A DNA stretch of 64,000 bases from Dysgonomonas sp. 25 (GTDB lineage Bacteria > Bacteroidota > Bacteroidia > Bacteroidales > Dysgonomonadaceae), in assembly GCF_010501075.1 (NCBI RefSeq), contig NZ_QVMN01000002.1, positions 496,001 through 560,000 on the forward strand, given 5' to 3'. The translations under genes were made by a program, and so were the position numbers. Of this stretch, positions 3,656 to 12,864 are shown piece by piece (within the stretch, counting starts at the first letter, position 1; every line of letters starts with the position of its first letter). A model generated the notes under the pieces. That model was not told the origin of the DNA and made no database searches. It saw only the letters and a list, made by a program, of their open reading frames with translations.

Positions 3656-3685
3656 TTTGTTATTTACGAAAAAGCATTACATTTG
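3656..3685 (+). promoter_or_regulatory. promoter of the aromatic amino acid operon
   Basis: TTTG (3656-3659) and TACATTTG (3678-3685) match the Bacteroidota primary-sigma -33 and -7 elements with an 18-base spacer; an alternative TTTG at 3652-3655 gives 22. Transcription should start near 3691, about 20 bases before the leader-peptide ATG and about 175 bases before pheA. Confidence 0.75.
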
Positions 3686-3711
3686 TAATCAAATTAAACA
3701 AGAAAGCAACT

Positions 3712-3768
3712 ATGCTCGGTAATTCTTATACATATTTTGGTTTTTACTTTTACTTTTTTAGAAAGTGA
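3712..3768 (+). CDS. Phe/Tyr-rich leader peptide of the pheA operon
   Basis: An 18-codon frame encodes MLGNSYTYFGFYFYFFRK and ends in TGA at 3766-3768. Five Phe and four Tyr codons make up nine of the eleven residues from position 6 to 16. It lies between the promoter and an intrinsic terminator ahead of genes for Phe and Tyr synthesis. This is the layout of a transcription-attenuation leader such as enterobacterial pheL (established mechanism), in which a ribosome stalled at Phe/Tyr codons alters RNA folding. The peptide itself probably has no other function. The composition is far from chance for such a short frame, although translation has not been shown. Confidence 0.85.
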   Translation: MLGNSYTYFGFYFYFFRK

Positions 3769-3769
3769 A

Positions 3770-3828
3770 ACAGGATTTTGTATAAGTATATGAAAAAGAA
3801 ATAACGAAAATGATATATGAAATCCTGT
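3770..3828 (+). promoter_or_regulatory. antiterminator pairing segments
   Basis: ACAGGATTT at 3770-3778 begins two bases after the leader stop codon and is perfectly complementary to AAATCCTGT at 3820-3828, which is also the 5' arm of the terminator. A ribosome at the stop codon would cover the first segment and favour the terminator. A ribosome stalled earlier at Phe/Tyr codons would leave it free to pair and permit read-through. Confidence 0.75.
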
Positions 3829-3852
3829 CAAGAAAATGGCAGGATTTTTTTG
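3820..3852 (+). terminator. attenuator terminator before pheA
   Basis: The arms 3820-3830 and 3837-3847 form 11 pairs with one G-U wobble around a six-base loop (AGAAAA), followed by a T run. It lies 13 bases before the pheA ATG at 3866, inside the transcription unit. A terminator in this place makes sense only as a conditional one. Confidence 0.88.
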
Positions 3853-3865
3853 TTTAAGAAACGAT

Positions 3866-4708
3866 ATGAAAAAAGTAGCTATACAAGGAGGATTAGGAGC
3901 CTATCATGGCATCGCTGCCGAGAACTATTTCGGCGAGGAAGTGGAGATTGTTCCCTGCGCCACATTCCGGGATATTTTTTCGACAATCGAAAAAGAACCG
4001 AATACAATCGGCATTATGGCTATCGAAAACACCATAGCCGGAAGCCTTTTGGGGAATTACGATTTGCTGAAAGACAATAAATTACCCATTGCCGGCGAAT
4101 ACAAACAACGTATTTCCCATTGCCTGGCAGCCCTTCCGGGGCAGACGATCCACGATGTGCAGGAGGTGCAATCGCACCCGATTGCCTTGATGCAATGCAC
4201 CGAATTTCTTGACAAACTACCTGGAATAAAGATCGTTGAGCACGAAGATACGGCTTTGGCTGCACGCGATATTGCCCAAAACCAAATGGTGGGTGTTGCT
4301 GCCATATGTAGCGAACGGGCTGCCCAAATCTACGGACTCGAAATACTGGCGAGAGGAATTGAGACAAATAAGCACAATTTCACTCGCTTTCTTGTTTTTG
4401 CCAATCCGTGGATTGTGGACGAGTTGCAAAAAGAAGAGGTGCTGAATAAAGCTTCCATTGTTTTTACCGTACCTCACACCGAAGGGAGCTTGTCGCACGT
4501 GTTATCGGTTTTCTCCTTTTATAGTATCAACCTGACAAAGATACAATCGCTGCCTATTCAGGGGCGGGAATGGGAATACCAGTTTTATGTAGACCTCAAA
4601 TTTGCAGACCTCACACGCTATCGCCAATCACTGAACGCCATACGTCCGATAATCAGCGAATTGAAGATTCTGGGCGAGTATGTGGATGGCAGGCAAAGCG
4701 AGGGTTAA
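3866..4708 (+). CDS. pheA: prephenate dehydratase
   Basis: This 280-residue enzyme converts prephenate to phenylpyruvate, the committed step of phenylalanine synthesis. The N-terminus KKVAIQGGLGAYHGIAAENYF and the NTIAGSLLGNYDLL segment are typical of the dehydratase (PDT) domain. The C-terminal part (VFTVPHTEGSLSHVLSVFSFYSINLTKIQSLPI) is the ACT domain that binds Phe for feedback inhibition, including the ESRP-like region replaced by QSLPI. There is no fused chorismate mutase; that domain is on the DAHP synthase three genes on. The ATG at 3866 is preferred over the in-frame ATG at 3836, which lies inside the terminator stem. Confidence 0.95.
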   Translation: MKKVAIQGGLGAYHGIAAENYFGEEVEIVPCATFRDIFSTIEKEPNTIGIMAIENTIAGSLLGNYDLLKDNKLPIAGEYKQRISHCLAALPGQTIHDVQEVQSHPIALMQCTEFLDKLPGIKIVEHEDTALAARDIAQNQMVGVAAICSERAAQIYGLEILARGIETNKHNFTRFLVFANPWIVDELQKEEVLNKASIVFTVPHTEGSLSHVLSVFSFYSINLTKIQSLPIQGREWEYQFYVDLKFADLTRYRQSLNAIRPIISELKILGEYVDGRQSEG

Positions 4709-4781: not shown

Positions 4782-5948
4782 ATGAAAACAATAAAACCAG
4801 CCGAAAGGCTCGATACGATAAAGGAATATTACTTCTCCATCAAGCTGAAGGAAGTAGCCGAAATGAATGCCCGCGGTGAGAATGTTATTAGTCTCGGCAT
4901 CGGAAGCCCAGACCTTCCACCATCGGATGAAACGGTTAATGCCCTTACGGAAGATGCAAACCGAGCTGATGCACACGGCTATCAGCCGCATGTCGGCATC
5001 CTTACATTCCGCCAAGCGTTTGCCGATTGGTATAAACGTTCGTATGGTGTGGAACTGGATGCAACAAAAGAAATCCAACCGCTCATCGGCTCAAAGGAGG
5101 GGATTCTGCACATTTCGCTGGCATTTCTCAATCTGGGCGATGGCGTATTGGTTCCTAATCCGGGTTATCCGACATACAGTTCGGTGAGCAAATTGATTGG
5201 AGCGAATATCGTTTCGTACGATTTGGATGAAAATAATAATTGGCAGCCCGACTTCGACGCTTTGGAAAAGATGGATTTATCCCGTGTAAAACTGATGTGG
5301 GTAAACTATCCGAATATGCCGACGGGAGCAAACGGCTCTATCGAACTGTTTGAAAAACTGGTGGCTTTCGGCAAAAAGCACGGAATCGTTATTGCACACG
5401 ACAATCCGTATAGTTTCATCCTCAACAAAGAGCCGATAAGCATCCTGCAAATAGAAGGAGCAAAAGATATTTGTATCGAACTCAACTCGTTGAGCAAATC
5501 ACACAATATGCCCGGCTGGCGTATCGGGATGGTGGCTTCGAACCCGACATTTATAGGGTATATCCTAAAAGTGTTGAGTAATATCGAAAGTGGTATTTTC
5601 CGTCCGATGCAGAAAGCGGCTGTTGCTGCCCTCAGCAATCCGGCGGAATGGCACGAAAAGAATAATATCGAAGTTTACAGCAATCGTCGCCAACTGGCAG
5701 AAGAAATTATGCAGGCGCTTGGATGCACATTCGACGCCAATCAGGTGGGAATGTTCCTCTGGGGAAAAATTCCTGATATCTGTAAAAGCAGTGAAGAACT
5801 GGCAGATAAGATATTGTACAATGCTAAAGTTTTCCTCACACCGGGATTTATATTCGGCAGCCGTGGCGAGCGTTACATCCGCATATCGCTTTGCTGTAAC
5901 GAAACGATGCTGAAAGAAGCTTTGGAACGAATCAAGAAACTAGGATAA
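4782..5948 (+). CDS. class I/II PLP-dependent aminotransferase, probably aromatic
   Basis: The 388-residue protein is a fold-type I aminotransferase. Visible motifs are SLGIGSPDLPPS, the NPGYPTYSS loop, NYPNMPTGA with the conserved Asn-Pro region, HDNPYSFI, and SLSKSHNMPGWRIGM with the PLP-binding lysine. Its place between prephenate dehydratase and DAHP synthase suggests it transaminates phenylpyruvate and 4-hydroxyphenylpyruvate with glutamate, completing Phe and Tyr synthesis (inference from context). Sequence alone does not exclude an aspartate or LL-diaminopimelate type activity. The stop codon TAA shares its last base with the next ATG, so translation is probably coupled. Confidence 0.9.
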   Translation: MKTIKPAERLDTIKEYYFSIKLKEVAEMNARGENVISLGIGSPDLPPSDETVNALTEDANRADAHGYQPHVGILTFRQAFADWYKRSYGVELDATKEIQPLIGSKEGILHISLAFLNLGDGVLVPNPGYPTYSSVSKLIGANIVSYDLDENNNWQPDFDALEKMDLSRVKLMWVNYPNMPTGANGSIELFEKLVAFGKKHGIVIAHDNPYSFILNKEPISILQIEGAKDICIELNSLSKSHNMPGWRIGMVASNPTFIGYILKVLSNIESGIFRPMQKAAVAALSNPAEWHEKNNIEVYSNRRQLAEEIMQALGCTFDANQVGMFLWGKIPDICKSSEELADKILYNAKVFLTPGFIFGSRGERYIRISLCCNETMLKEALERIKKLG

Positions 5949-6502
5949 TGACAACCGAAAATACAAATAATACACTTTCTTCCGACAGGGTTACTTTAAG
6001 GAGTATTTCCGAAACGGATGTCGATGCTATTTTTGCCTATCGTTCTTTGGAAAGTATTGCCAGATACCAATACTGGGAGCCTTATACGAAAGACCAGGCA
6101 AAGGAATTCGTCGATCGGAACAAGGATGCCGGTTTAGAGAAACGTGGCGAATGGATTGGATTGGCAATCATCCATCGTGCCGATAAAAAGCTGATTGGGG
6201 ATTGTGCCCTGAAAATAGAAGATACTAGAGCAGAAATTGGATGTAACATATCGCCTGATTACCAGAAGCAAGGATTAGCTAAGGAAGTTTTACGCCTTTT
6301 GTCGGATTATTGCTTTAACAATACCGATGTCCGGATAATTGAAGGAATAACCGATTCGGAGAATAAAGCTTCCATCCGTTTAATGGAATCTGTGGGCATG
6401 GCAAAAGTGAGTGATTTTGAAGAAAAGCTTATCTGCAAAGGAAAACCTTGTGTGGAATATAAATATAGTCTGGAAAAAACAAAAAATAACAATATAAAAT
6501 AA
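5948..6502 (+). CDS. GNAT family N-acetyltransferase (RimJ/RimL-like)
   Basis: The 184-residue protein has the layout of RimJ/RimL-type acetyltransferases: an N-terminal VTLRSISETDVDAIFAYRS, a middle strand AIIHRADKKLIGDCAL, then the acetyl-CoA loop region IGCNISPDYQKQGLAKEVLRLL and the ENKASIRLMESVGM motif. It overlaps the aminotransferase by one base and ends six bases before the DAHP synthase, so it belongs to the aromatic operon. Its substrate is not evident; a small amine, an amino acid or a protein N-terminus are all possible. A GNAT inside this biosynthetic operon is unusual. Confidence 0.88.
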   Translation: MTTENTNNTLSSDRVTLRSISETDVDAIFAYRSLESIARYQYWEPYTKDQAKEFVDRNKDAGLEKRGEWIGLAIIHRADKKLIGDCALKIEDTRAEIGCNISPDYQKQGLAKEVLRLLSDYCFNNTDVRIIEGITDSENKASIRLMESVGMAKVSDFEEKLICKGKPCVEYKYSLEKTKNNNIK

Positions 6503-6508
6503 ATCATT

Positions 6509-7576
6509 ATGAAACTGGAATCAATCTTACTACCGGGTGTAGACCCGAAAAGACCGTTGGTCATTGCAGGGCCTTGCAGCGCCGAAACAGAAGAACAAGT
6601 GATGAATACAGCCCACCAATTGGCTGCCGACGGCATCAAAATAATGCGTGCCGGAATCTGGAAACCCCGCACCAAACCGGGAGGTTTCGAAGGTGTAGGC
6701 AGCGAAGGGCTTGGATGGCTGAAAAAAGTAAAGCAAGAAACAGGCATGTATGTCTCTACCGAAGTGGCTACACAAAAACATGTGTACGAGGCACTTAAAT
6801 ACGGTGTGGATATGCTTTGGATCGGTGCGCGTACGACTGCCAATCCCTTTGCTGTGCAGGAAATTGCCGAAGCTTTGCAAGGAGTGGATATTCCCGTATT
6901 GGTGAAGAATCCTGTCAATCCCGATCTTGAACTTTGGATTGGTGCATTGGAGCGTTTGAGCAATGTCGGTCTAACCCGTTTGGGAGCTATTCATCGCGGA
7001 TTCAGCTCGTACGATAAAAAGATTTACCGCAACCTTCCGCAATGGCACATTCCGATCGAATTGAAACGCCGTTACCCTGATCTGCCGATTATTTGCGATC
7101 CGAGCCATATCGGTGGCAAGCGCGACTTGATTCTCCCTCTTTCGCAACAGGCTATGGATTTGAACTTCGAAGGACTGATTATCGAAACGCATTGCAATCC
7201 CGATGAAGCATGGAGCGATGCTTCTCAACAGGTTACACCGACAAGGCTGAAAGAAATCCTCTCCGCACTTATTATCCGCGATGTGAAACAAACTACCGAA
7301 GATTTATCCGAATTGCGTCAGCAAATTGATGAATTGGATAATCAGCTACTTGAATTGCTGGCAAAACGGATGCGTGTTTCGTGCGAAATAGGAACGTTCA
7401 AGAAAGAGCATAACCTGACAATCGTGCAAACCAACCGCTACGACGAAATTCTGCATACGCGTATCGCTCAGGCGGAAGAAATGGGTATGAACCCAGAGTT
7501 TATGCGTGTCGTGTTGGAGGCTATTCATGAAGAATCGGTACGCCAGCAAGTGGATATAATGAATAATAAAGTGTAA
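6509..7576 (+). CDS. bifunctional DAHP synthase / chorismate mutase
   Basis: The 355-residue fusion carries a type I-beta 3-deoxy-D-arabino-heptulosonate 7-phosphate synthase at residues about 1-255 (IAGPCSAETEEQ, RAGIWKPRTKPGGFEG, WIGARTTANPFAVQE, KNPVNPD, CDPSHIGGKRD, IETHCNPDEAWSD) and an AroQ-type chorismate mutase at about 265-350 (LRQQIDELDNQLLELLAKRM, with later VVLEAIHEESVRQQ). The first catalyses entry into the shikimate pathway and the second makes prephenate for PheA and TyrA. In this family the mutase domain also serves in feedback control by prephenate (established for related fusions). Metal-binding Cys, His and Glu residues are present. Confidence 0.95.
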   Translation: MKLESILLPGVDPKRPLVIAGPCSAETEEQVMNTAHQLAADGIKIMRAGIWKPRTKPGGFEGVGSEGLGWLKKVKQETGMYVSTEVATQKHVYEALKYGVDMLWIGARTTANPFAVQEIAEALQGVDIPVLVKNPVNPDLELWIGALERLSNVGLTRLGAIHRGFSSYDKKIYRNLPQWHIPIELKRRYPDLPIICDPSHIGGKRDLILPLSQQAMDLNFEGLIIETHCNPDEAWSDASQQVTPTRLKEILSALIIRDVKQTTEDLSELRQQIDELDNQLLELLAKRMRVSCEIGTFKKEHNLTIVQTNRYDEILHTRIAQAEEMGMNPEFMRVVLEAIHEESVRQQVDIMNNKV

Positions 7577-7997
7577 TTTATTGCTATAAGTTTATCTATG
7601 TTATGATAGTTACGAGTTACTTCGTGCTTTGCATAGTTACAAGTTACAAGAAAAAGTAACTCGATGAAAACGTTCGAAATGAATATACGTTTGTTACTTT
7701 TTGGGGGAAGTTTTGTCATGCCGACAGTAGGAGGCATCTCTTGTCAATAATGGAAAAAGGTAACACTGAGTTCCACAGAGGAGGCACTGAGATACACTGA
7801 GAAAAGTAACTTTAAGAAAAATGCTCTTTGTTTGTACCGGTAAAATAAAAGTAAATAATTGAATATTAATGATGTATGTATTGGTTGGTGCGAAAAAAAA
7901 CGGGACAAAAAGTGGTGCAAAAAAGCGACACTTTAGAGGCTTTTTGGGGAGTAACGTTAGTAACCGATTTACATTAAAATTATAAATCTAATAAAAG
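7577..7997. repeat. repeat-bearing gap within the aromatic cluster
   Basis: No convincing gene is seen. Bases 7606-7650 carry the AGTTACGAGTTACTTCGTGC / GTTACAAGTTACAAG repeat. Bases 7762-7803 carry a CACTGAGTTCCACAGAGG / CACTGAGATACACTGAG repeat typical of many Bacteroidota spacers. Bases 7885-7985 are A-rich. No clear terminator is visible, so the genes after the gap may be read from the operon promoter or from one of their own that I cannot place. Confidence 0.5.
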
Positions 7998-8417
7998 ATG
8001 AAAACAAAACTGTATATGTATCGTAACCGTTGGAATATTGTTGTCGGCATTATTCTTCTGCTTCTTTCGTCCATGCAGTTATCTTTCTTTTTCTATGGAC
8101 AAGATTTTTCGACAGAAAATATTATTCTTCGTGGAGTTGTTTACTCGTTGTTTTTGGGGGTGGCAATTTGCATGATTGTGTATAGTAGCATGTCTGTTCC
8201 GCTCGTTATTTCGGCTGATTTCATATATAGCGATAAAAAGCAATATCCGGTTTCGGAAATAAGTAGTATCCAGATAAACGAGAAAGATATTTTTATCCGT
8301 ATACCAACGAAACCTTCTATTTTGCTGAAAAGGTCGTTTTTTAAGAAATCCGACTGGGAAGATGTTTGCAAATCCTTTGAGGAATTAATCGAACGCAAGC
8401 AAATTAATAACGAATGA
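7998..8417 (+). CDS. small two-TM membrane protein, unknown function
   Basis: The 139-residue protein has two membrane segments, about residues 13-33 (IVVGIILLLLSSMQLSFFFY) and 43-68 (LRGVVYSLFLGVAICMIVYSS), then a soluble domain of about 65 residues with alternating strands (LVISADFIYSDKKQYPVSEISSIQI) and a C-terminal helix. The soluble part looks like a small PH-like membrane-associated domain, but this is a guess from pattern. The next gene has the same architecture and overlaps it by four bases (ATGA), so the pair is probably a tandem duplication working together. Confidence 0.75.
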   Translation: MKTKLYMYRNRWNIVVGIILLLLSSMQLSFFFYGQDFSTENIILRGVVYSLFLGVAICMIVYSSMSVPLVISADFIYSDKKQYPVSEISSIQINEKDIFIRIPTKPSILLKRSFFKKSDWEDVCKSFEELIERKQINNE

Positions 8418-8830
8418 TGAAAAATAGTTATAATTATAAACGTGTAGGCGTCAGGAAAATAGCTATTGTTCTCTTTGTTGTGGCTATTCTTCTGGTAGTA
8501 CTTTCTGTTGTAACGATGATGCAATCAGGCACGACTAATGCTATCCCTTCTTTGATGGCAGTCCTTTGTGCTACTGTTTTGCTCTATACCTCTTTCAGAA
8601 AGACGAAAGTAATAGTGGAAGACGACCAGTTCGAGATTGTAGATAAGACTATTCGCATCGATCAGATAAAGCGAATAGATATTCAGGATAAGCGGATAGA
8701 CGTTGTAGTTGAAAATGGTGTCTTTATTTTAGGCTCTCATCTTTATATGACCGATAAATGCTTCGATAGCTTGGAGGACTGGAACAGTTTCAAAAAAGAC
8801 ATGGAAAATCTAAAAACAAAACTTCTGTAA
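8414..8830 (+). CDS. small two-TM membrane protein, paralogue of the preceding gene
   Basis: The 138-residue protein has membrane segments at about residues 15-36 (IAIVLFVVAILLVVLSVVTMM) and 43-60 (AIPSLMAVLCATVLLYTS), followed by a strand-rich domain (KVIVEDDQFEIVDKTIRIDQIKRIDIQ) and a terminal helix with EDWNSFKKDM. It resembles its neighbour in length, topology and the DWxxxxK C-terminal motif. It lies three bases before tyrA. Function is unknown; a link to aromatic amino acid sensing or transport is only suggested by place. Confidence 0.75.
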   Translation: MMKNSYNYKRVGVRKIAIVLFVVAILLVVLSVVTMMQSGTTNAIPSLMAVLCATVLLYTSFRKTKVIVEDDQFEIVDKTIRIDQIKRIDIQDKRIDVVVENGVFILGSHLYMTDKCFDSLEDWNSFKKDMENLKTKLL

Positions 8831-8833
8831 ACA

Positions 8834-9616
8834 ATGAAAATATTGATACTCGGAGCCGGAAAAATGGGCTCTTTCTTTGGTGATGTATTGAGTTTCGATC
8901 ACGAATTGGCAGTATACGATACTGATCCGAAGAAACTACGCTTTATCTATAATACGGTTCGTATGAGCGATGCGAAGGAGATTGCCGATTTCGATCCCGA
9001 TTTGGTTATCAATGCCGTGACGGTAAAATATACGATCGAAGCCTTTAAGTCTGTCCTGCCTTACCTCCGAAAAGATTGCATTATCTCGGATATTGCTTCG
9101 GTAAAAACGGGGTTGGAAGAATTTTATGCGACTGTCGAACAGCCCTTTGCTTCCTCGCATCCTATGTTCGGGCCTACCTTTGCCGATTTGCGGGATTTGA
9201 GTAGCCAGAGTGCGATTGTCATTTCCGAATCGAGCCCGCGAGGGAAGCAATTTTTTCTCGATTTATATAATAGTTTGAATCTTAGAGTGTTCGAATATAC
9301 ATTCAACGAGCATGACGAAACGATAGCCTATTCCTTGTCCATCCCTTTTGCATCGACATTGGTTTTCACCTCGGTGATGAAGCATCAGGAGGCGCCGGGA
9401 ACGACCTTCAAGCGGCACATGGATATTGCGAAAGGCTTACTTTCGGAAGATGATTACCTATTGACGGAAATATTGTTCAACCCTCATACACCCAAGCAGA
9501 TAGAGGGTATAAGGAAGGAGTTGAAACATCTGTTAGAGATTGTAGAGCAGAAAGACGGAAAGGCTATGCTGGAATTTCTGACCAAAGCCCGGAAAAACAT
9601 TGCGGAGAAGCCTTAA
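8834..9616 (+). CDS. tyrA: prephenate dehydrogenase
   Basis: The 260-residue enzyme oxidatively decarboxylates prephenate to 4-hydroxyphenylpyruvate for tyrosine synthesis. The NAD(P)-binding Rossmann motif GAGKMGSFFGDVL begins at residue 7, DIASVKTGL is the conserved region after the fold, and SSHPMFGPTFADL holds the substrate-binding His. The helical C-terminal domain follows (HDETIAYSLSIPFAS). It is short for the family and lacks an ACT or chorismate mutase domain. It completes a cluster with both the Phe and Tyr branches. Confidence 0.94.
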   Translation: MKILILGAGKMGSFFGDVLSFDHELAVYDTDPKKLRFIYNTVRMSDAKEIADFDPDLVINAVTVKYTIEAFKSVLPYLRKDCIISDIASVKTGLEEFYATVEQPFASSHPMFGPTFADLRDLSSQSAIVISESSPRGKQFFLDLYNSLNLRVFEYTFNEHDETIAYSLSIPFASTLVFTSVMKHQEAPGTTFKRHMDIAKGLLSEDDYLLTEILFNPHTPKQIEGIRKELKHLLEIVEQKDGKAMLEFLTKARKNIAEKP

Positions 9617-11781: not shown

Positions 11782-12864
11782 TTAGTTTTGTTTACACCTT
11801 ACCGAGCCCAAGGCATTCCGCAGGCAGTTTTCGCTTGCCGTTTCCCTTATGATGTCATTCTGTAAAGTATAGAAACGCCTGTTCCAGTTGCTATTGAGAG
11901 ATGCTGAGCTGCTGGTGTGGAAAAGTGCTGCCGCCGGAATATCGGTATTGTTATACCTGTATCCGATGCAGAGCACATTAAAGCCTCCCCGTTCCGTTGG
12001 GTGGCATAGTCCGCCATATGTTGCCGATTTCATATTAAGGGCAAGAGTGCCGGCCGAGCAATCGTTTTTGCTGCTGTAGTAGCATGGATTCACTAATATT
12101 TCGTCGGTCAACTGGCTCCATTCCTTATCACTTGGCAGATGCCATCCGTTGGGGCAAATACCTTGTACCTGTACATGGTCTCTGTTTCCTTCATCCATCG
12201 GGAGAGTCTTATTCTTCGTCGCTGCCGGCCAATTATATAAGAATCCATATTCGGGATTTGTATTCAATATCGACGGATTATTCTGAGGGTAGTAATATCG
12301 GGCGTCTGTAGCCATATAAATGGTTTGGTTTGTTAAGGTTAAACCGGCGTCTGTTCCATCGGGCCATTTTTCGGCACGTAGATTTTCCAACATCCACCAA
12401 CCGGCATCGCCAAAGTATCCTATATTATATGTGACTGGATTGCTTGGGTCGCGGTCGTCAATGAATGTTTTGATCCTTGAACTTCCATTTTTATTGTTCT
12501 GTAGCGATATATTCTCCCACGAAGCACCGTTCCAGACATGAATGCCTTTGTATACTGCGGGGGTGGCACATAAGTTTTCGTTGATGTTGTATATGATAAG
12601 TCCGGCATGCGTCTCTTTGTCTAATAGGGTTGCTCCGGAAAGAATGTCTTCGAAAGAATCGATCTGTGAAAGCTCAACCCGTGGCAGGCCTAATCCTTTT
12701 TGGGCTGTACAATTATTGCCGTCCGGGTGATGCTCTTTCAGATCCAGCAGAGCTCCGGGTATGGGAGGCTCGGCCATGCCGATGGTAACTTGAGAAAATA
12801 GGGAAGGTAATTCAATGTTTATCAGAAGGACGATGATGACAATTGATAAATAATTTACACGCAT
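11782..12864 (-). CDS. secreted protein with Fibrobacter succinogenes major domain
   Basis: The 360-residue protein has a signal peptide (about 1-24), then the module VTIGMAEPPIPGALLDLKE ... KGLGLPRVELSQID shared with the proteins at 1476 and 24151. The C-terminal half holds GFLYNWPAATKN, VQGICPNGWHLPSDKEWSQLTDE and a final SVRCKQN, the signature of the Fib_succ_major paralogous domain (TIGR02145). Such proteins are exported and surface-associated in Bacteroidota; their function is poorly known. A well-formed promoter lies at 13074-13104. No GT tract or hairpin repeats accompany this copy, unlike the other two. Confidence 0.87.
   Translation of the reverse strand: MRVNYLSIVIIVLLINIELPSLFSQVTIGMAEPPIPGALLDLKEHHPDGNNCTAQKGLGLPRVELSQIDSFEDILSGATLLDKETHAGLIIYNINENLCATPAVYKGIHVWNGASWENISLQNNKNGSSRIKTFIDDRDPSNPVTYNIGYFGDAGWWMLENLRAEKWPDGTDAGLTLTNQTIYMATDARYYYPQNNPSILNTNPEYGFLYNWPAATKNKTLPMDEGNRDHVQVQGICPNGWHLPSDKEWSQLTDEILVNPCYYSSKNDCSAGTLALNMKSATYGGLCHPTERGGFNVLCIGYRYNNTDIPAAALFHTSSSASLNSNWNRRFYTLQNDIIRETASENCLRNALGSVRCKQN

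Follow-up and report, generated by a model that had tools for sequence, protein, structure and literature searches.

A probable ribosome-mediated attenuator with Phe and Tyr codons before the pheA operon of Dysgonomonas and its relatives

What decides whether the aromatic amino acid genes that begin with pheA are transcribed in Dysgonomonas sp. 25? A preliminary description of the window (i.e., the whole stretch of DNA analysed here, 64,000 nt in length) had read the region just before pheA as a leader-peptide attenuator rich in phenylalanine (Phe, F) and tyrosine (Tyr, Y) codons. The evidence gathered here from sequence comparison and folding supports that reading; that is, the element is very probably a ribosome-mediated transcription attenuator that would sense both charged tRNA-Phe and charged tRNA-Tyr.

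Under the mechanism that we infer, when both charged tRNAs are ample the ribosome on the leader would reach the stop codon and cover strand 2, and the terminator made by strands 3 and 4 (3:4) would end transcription before pheA. If either tRNA is short, the ribosome would instead stall at a Phe or a Tyr codon and break the hairpin between strands 1 and 2 (1:2), leaving strand 2 free to form the antiterminator with strand 3 (2:3), and the operon would be transcribed. If no ribosome is loaded, the 1:2 hairpin would keep strand 2, and termination would occur by default.

Leader frame, helices and operon in the window

The leader (Table 1) is the sole ATG or GTG frame of 10-40 residues with at least nine F/Y in 11 in the 64,000-nt window, and no frame with at least nine F/Y in 11 occurred in 60 first-order Markov surrogates. 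Its stop is TGA (3766-3768), and ACAGGATTT (3770-3778) starts two bases beyond it; every one of these coordinates, as well as the frame limits and the nine F/Y in 11, had been given correctly in the preliminary description. By composition and conservation (below) this is a short frame rich in codons for the products of the operon behind it, and its translation is predicted. A promoter had also been proposed at 3656-3685. A scan for the sigma-70 form gave no site there, and the Bacteroidota form, which has the consensus TTTG-N18-TACATTTG, was sought instead; it was found at that position. Matches to TTTG...TACATTTG number nine in the whole window (two of them being the promoter site itself) vs. 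2.9 expected, and in 84 of 85 pheA regions a copy of TANNTTTG is found no more than 75 nt from the leader start, mostly 26-30 nt upstream. The RNA would start near 3692, this start and the RNA ends being predicted.

Table 1. Predicted features of the attenuator and of the operon behind it (window coordinates)
Feature	Position	Strand	Basis
Promoter, Bacteroidota form, TTTG-N18-TACATTTG	3656-3685	+	Sequence search; TANNTTTG conservation
Leader peptide MLGNSYTYFGFYFYFFRK and stop, 18 codons, 9 Phe/Tyr codons in 11	3712-3768	+	ORF; F/Y-rich leader in 86/86 distinct regions
Strand 1, within the leader (5' sides of the 1:2 hairpin at 3725-3732, 3734-3739, 3742-3751)	3725-3751	+	Fold; homologue covariation of related pairing; synonymous-site bias
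1:2 hairpin, 3' side (3761-3770; 3771-3776, the strand-2 core; 3779-3786)	3761-3786	+	Fold
Strand 2, antiterminator 5' side, two bases past the stop	3770-3784	+	Fold; covariation with strand 3
Strand 3, antiterminator 3' side, overlapping the terminator 5' arm	3814-3828	+	Fold
Intrinsic terminator (3:4) and T run	3819-3854	+	Terminator search; fold; covariation
pheA, prephenate dehydratase	3866-4708	+	PF00800, E 7e-56
Class I/II aminotransferase	4782-5948	+	PF00155
GNAT acetyltransferase	5948-6502	+	PF13302
aroF-aroQ, DAHP synthase fused to chorismate mutase	6509-7576	+	PF00793 and PF01817
tyrA, prephenate dehydrogenase	8834-9616	+	PF02153, E 5.7e-9; NCBIfam prephenate dehydrogenase models match below cut-offs

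As noted before, ACAGGATTT is perfectly complementary to AAATCCTGT in the terminator 5' arm, and in a fold without the leader the pairing extends to an antiterminator of 15 pairs (3770-3784 with 3814-3828). The 11-pair terminator described previously (3820-3847) is correct as a core; the fuller stem spans 3819-3848, with 12 pairs if G-T is allowed, and is followed by the T run. It forms when strand 2 is removed from the fold. The full RNA folds into the terminator and a long hairpin that the leader codons form with the sequence surrounding the stop. Folding also predicts a third helix that had been overlooked, the 1:2 helix, which is encoded by the F/Y codons and would sequester strand 2: ATTTTG of the leader pairs with CAGGAT of the strand-2 core, and a later TTTTACTTTT pairs with GAAAGTGAAA. 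With this leader-encoded helix the predicted structure has the full 1:2, 2:3 and 3:4 plan of an attenuator.

The fold of 3692-3855 is more stable than all of its shuffled versions (z -4.05; 0 of 200 equally stable). For 3692-3815, which excludes the terminator and holds the 1:2 hairpin, z is -1.71 and 15 of 200 shuffles are equally stable; that is, the protecting hairpin, which overlaps the regulatory codons according to both folds and covariation, has an unexceptional energy in the window. With strands 2 to 4 considered together at equilibrium, the antiterminator wins in one fold of the window RNA and loses in another with slightly different ends.

The genes behind the leader encode enzymes for the common entry as well as for the Phe and Tyr branches. 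The preliminary description had the attenuator controlling pheA together with the downstream genes. The part concerning pheA is supported, whereas the reach over tyrA in this genome is uncertain because aroF-aroQ and tyrA are separated by 421 nt plus two frames that match no Pfam family (together 7577-8833). The order pheA, aminotransferase, aroF-aroQ, tyrA is found in 36 of the 64 named relatives with at least 5 kb downstream. The nearest named relatives of the window PheA are mostly Dysgonomonas, at 75-85% identity. Elsewhere in the window, two predicted proteins on the minus strand (1476-2582 and 11782-12864) have similar N-terminal starts, and one of them has repeated NQLTSLDVS units that by eye resemble leucine-rich repeats.

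Conservation, covariation and ribosome spacing at pheA loci

An alignment of pheA upstream regions had been suggested as a check, and it agrees with the attenuator: the leaders keep their composition, covariation is seen in both alternative stems, and the spacing suits masking by a ribosome. Of 104 loci with a PheA match, 102 (including the window) were usable, two being skipped for too short an upstream sequence, and these reduce to 86 distinct regions. From Dysgonomonas to Bacteroides, all 86 have a leader with at least eight F/Y in 11 residues, and a terminator. Under a fixed control rule (at least seven F/Y in 12, then a terminator), the 79 named pheA loci passed without exception; of 596 long frames taken from these loci, those of pheA among them, the rule was passed by 67, all of them cases of pheA leaders, and four other frames had a leader-like frame but no terminator.

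Folding of the 86 regions gave similar structures throughout. The full leader folds as a hairpin plus the terminator in 83, the leader sequesters the strand-2 core in 84, the terminator forms with strand 2 masked in all 86, and removal of both the leader and strand 4 lets the antiterminator form in 80. If strands 2, 3 and 4 are allowed to compete at equilibrium, the antiterminator prevails in only 29 of 86. Since equilibrium mostly favors the terminator, the model requires co-transcriptional timing, with the antiterminator forming before strand 4 is made, which is the order of events in classical attenuators.

Covariation was assessed in an alignment of 69 regions, with 500 shuffles and slid versions of each helix as controls. 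The 2:3, 3:4 and 1:2 helices each ranked above all 500 shuffles, and above each slid version, in paired cells and in covariation score. Less telling is the number of pairs in which both sides changed, a number that 64 (2:3), 23 (3:4) and 4 (1:2) of the 500 shuffles also reached. It is important to note that the helices were picked from the same sequences on which they were tested, which biases the comparison in their favor, and that shuffles disregard relatedness; for the latter reason, a quickly built PheA tree was used as well, with changes counted by parsimony. On this tree, the triple at columns 67/153/170 changed from A-U-A to G-C-G five times, and that at columns 69/151/172 changed from A-U-G to G-C-G twice and back once. 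The changes at columns 66/154/169 were mostly between G-C-G and A-C-G, with one pair broken, and the pair between columns 66 and 154 is present in only 53 of 68 sequences. Taken as a whole, the folds, covariation and tree counts argue for a mutually exclusive antiterminator and terminator kept by compensatory change.

Codon choice within the leaders is also skewed. The last two Tyr codons are TAC in 60/65 and 64/68 leaders (23 and 24 expected, respectively), and the Phe codon between them is TTT in 69/69 (42 expected). When the Phe and Tyr codons were randomised synonymously, the hairpin became weaker on average for 85 of 86 leaders (median z -1.6), and 36 of 86 native leaders fell in the best 5% of their randomisations; the window's own z is just -0.4. 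The late Tyr codons also pair in the 1:2 helix, and their conservation could be partly structural.

Counted from the first base of the final F/Y codon, the strand-2 core begins 13-18 nt on in 85 of 86 regions and 10 nt on in the remaining one; the standard deviation is 1.3, compared with 9.7 for the distance from the core to the stop. Assuming a ribosome footprint the size of that of E. coli, stalling on this final codon would keep strand 2 accessible in 85 of 86, and in 80 of 86 a ribosome that has reached the stop would cover the strand-2 core. This spacing is not independent proof, because it is also set by the inner hairpin. In six leaders (L018, L088, L097, L100, L103 and L104) the reading frame continues across strand 2 to a stop 21 nt beyond the core start, and simple masking at the stop cannot work there.

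Leader codons, operon content and alternative explanations

To compare leader codons with the genes behind them, we retrieved the sequence downstream of 40 of the 150 listed PDT loci (PDT occurs in 182 genomes). The earliest picks were made for leaders that looked Tyr-poor, with gene content then unseen, and the later ones to span families. Our search detected no leader at three lone pheA genes (G347, G150, G292) and one pheA-tyrA operon (G380) among the 40, and these were left out, together with one locus whose contig ends past the aminotransferase (G075). One locus with aroF-aroQ and no tyrA in view was kept as a joint operon (G157), and the tyrA match of another was short (G298; 70 bits). 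Three of the four tyrA queries were first named by eye, and Pfam confirmed all three as prephenate dehydrogenase.

The seven leaders of lone pheA genes have Phe-rich runs with no Tyr codon in five cases and one in the other two, so that none has two or more, vs. at least two Tyr codons in the run of every one of the 28 joint-operon leaders, i.e., 27 with tyrA and one with only aroF-aroQ in view (Fisher 1.5e-7 for 7 vs. 28 leaders, not corrected for relatedness). The same contrast is seen within families f89 and f15. The dual Phe/Tyr sensing proposed earlier gains support from this comparison of leader codons with operon content. In nine operons that contain Tyr-branch or common genes but lack pheA, the leader run includes three or more Tyr codons; these are nine of ten such loci, one (G158) having been dropped as the script detected no leader. 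Their Tyr share, Y/(F+Y), did not differ significantly from that of the joint operons (0.48 vs. 0.41, p 0.09). Tyr codons are also present in the leaders of 28 of the 64 named loci with at least 5 kb downstream even though tyrA is absent from the stretch. Two genomes carry two attenuators each (G047, with L332 G047:C13 and L152 G047:C15; G038, with L320 G038:C32 and L165 G038:C6), having a run without Tyr before pheA and five or six Tyr codons before a split-off tyrA/aroF-aroQ operon.

Alternatively, the attenuator might be real and sense Phe only, the Tyr codons serving the need of the 1:2 helix for A and C. This is what one could read from the TTT-TAC-TTT-TAC-TTT stretch, which is nearly fixed to the third base, far off background usage, and pairs in 1:2. 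We nonetheless consider Phe-only sensing unlikely, given that, across families with quite different leader sequences, Tyr codons accompany a following tyrA or aroF-aroQ and a lone pheA has one at most, that this difference recurs inside single families, and that the Tyr codons persist in operons that lack pheA altogether.

Two further explanations depart from a ribosome acting on transcription, and we regard both as very improbable. The terminator might be governed by an RNA-binding protein or a metabolite, with the short frame as a by-product; such control of terminators is common, and the leader is able to fold as a hairpin. Against this, Rfam returned no T-box, riboswitch or leader family at threshold for the element or nine tested relatives, F/Y-rich frames persist at pheA beyond the reach of our RNA model (see the following section), and strand 2 keeps a near-constant distance from the F/Y codons and not from the stop. 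The leader might also control the translation of pheA, or its peptide might act in trans, and the Bacteroides precedent for a leader peptide, that of tetracycline resistance on CTnDOT, is indeed translational. Strands 3 and 4, however, form a hairpin with a T run in 86 of 86 regions, and the terminator lies anywhere from 15 to 133 nt before pheA, a poor fit to masking of the pheA start.

Hence, we favor ribosome-mediated attenuation of transcription in response to both amino acids, and lean, with some reservation, toward a broader hypothesis, namely that aromatic amino acid synthesis in Bacteroidota is under a versatile attenuator family. The specificity of its members would be rewritten codon by codon as operons split and merge (nearly Phe-only for lone pheA; Phe and Tyr for joint or split-off operons), the codons would double as a strand of the protecting hairpin, and members would occur in tandem in several families. 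If this is true, RNA polymerase and ribosome would have to be closely in step in Bacteroidota, a close timing of transcription and translation that any working leader-peptide attenuator would imply and that the element allows to be tested directly. The model also proposes how Phe and Tyr synthesis would be controlled in a phylum abundant in animal guts, and makes specific predictions about it. Leader codons that match the genes behind them represent a natural test of attenuator specificity.

Relation to known systems and range of the element

The element looks like a textbook ribosome-mediated attenuator. In the classical plan, that of the E. coli trp and pheA attenuators (the latter being RF01859), a leader with regulatory codons, the 1:2, 2:3 and 3:4 helices and a terminator precede the first biosynthetic gene, and all of these are shared here. 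The window element differs in having both Phe and Tyr codons, a Bacteroidota promoter and operon, and strand 2 placed right at the stop. Its best leader match in Rfam, to Phe_leader (RF01859), reached 17.7 bits vs. a gathering score of 55, which places it outside that family, and the only Rfam matches in the window at threshold were two tRNAs, both elsewhere than the element. Sensing of more than one amino acid by a single leader is known from the multivalent ilvGMEDA and thr attenuators, which involve other amino acids and another phylum.

Within Bacteroidota, the Bacteroid-trp RNA (RF01692) is presented as a cis-regulatory RNA in the part of the source available to us (Genome Biol 2010, PMC2864571). 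Of 25 genomes of the genus, 18 have it; it is absent from the matches in the window and had no match in the window genome at E <= 0.001. Its amino acid is Trp, as opposed to Phe/Tyr. In one genome (L304, G009:C12), Bacteroid-trp contains a leader rich in Trp (MQFQLLNTYWWWRSQLKKS) and what by eye is a terminator, followed by a trpB-like frame of the PALP family (PF00291); its strand 2 pairs, also by eye, with the terminator loop and 3' arm, unlike in the pheA element, where the 5' arm is used.

The preliminary description did not recall such a leader for this operon in Bacteroidota, and that view was too strong; the element is partly foreseen by two papers, to the extent that their accessible text reveals. 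A putative attenuator before pheA>hisHb>aroA-aroQ>tyrA of B. thetaiotaomicron is tabulated in the first (Table 7; BMC Biol 2005, PMC1173090), taken from a website of predicted attenuators, and the portion of that paper at hand names no leader peptide, sensor or specificity; with the same operon in a related genus, it is very probably the same element as the one described here. The second reports, for Flavobacterium psychrophilum and other Flavobacteriaceae (i.e., the same phylum), a transcribed, conserved and structured 5' element before pheA without an Rfam hit, as well as clues for leader-peptide attenuation ahead of amino acid operons, and its accessible portion gives no leader sequence or Phe/Tyr specificity (ISME Commun 2021, PMC9723704). 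Leader-like short frames in general appear in the portion at hand of a 2020 map of B. thetaiotaomicron, and a 2010 survey, in the passages accessible, states that before its own Firmicutes case leader-peptide systems had been shown in Proteobacteria and Actinobacteria only. We found no description of a Phe/Tyr leader peptide for Bacteroidales pheA in the main text of open-licence papers, as far as their accessible portions go.

To assess the range of the element, a covariance model was run against 392 genomes of the order, of which 114 matched at E <= 0.001 under strict filters (PDT is present in 182 of the 392). These gave 125 matches, 83 of which lie upstream of a listed PDT match at a distance of at most 231 nt (the listing covers 150 of the 182 PDT genomes). 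By hand tally, the other 42 comprise 15 before pheA, ten before an aminotransferase, aroF-aroQ or tyrA without pheA, four F/Y leaders at contig ends, and 13 that are unrelated or unclear. The last 13, all at 49.6 bits or less, precede no Phe/Tyr gene; the frame behind one of them is anthranilate synthase component I, and that behind another is a trpB-like frame of the PALP family. In the window genome, the search for a second copy gave a next match at E 0.028 only.

Listed PDT loci without an adjoining model match number 69, of which 67 have enough sequence. Again by hand tally, 52 of the 67 have a frame with at least six F/Y/W in 12, one of which (L211) looks spurious, and 15 do not, although two of these 15 are short Phe leaders. 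Outside the order but within the same class, a leader and a terminator are found in seven of 15 genomes examined at the places listed, and were absent from the eight that belong to families f112 and f117.

Finally, tandem F/Y(W)-rich leaders, each with its own terminator, stand before pheA in six of eight genomes examined (L156 in G213, L203 in G264, L207 in G193, L237 in G247, L238 in G304 and L249 in G170); for the other two (L252 in G103 and L126 in G189), the script detected no terminator for the second leader. The tandem leaders are possibly serial attenuators.
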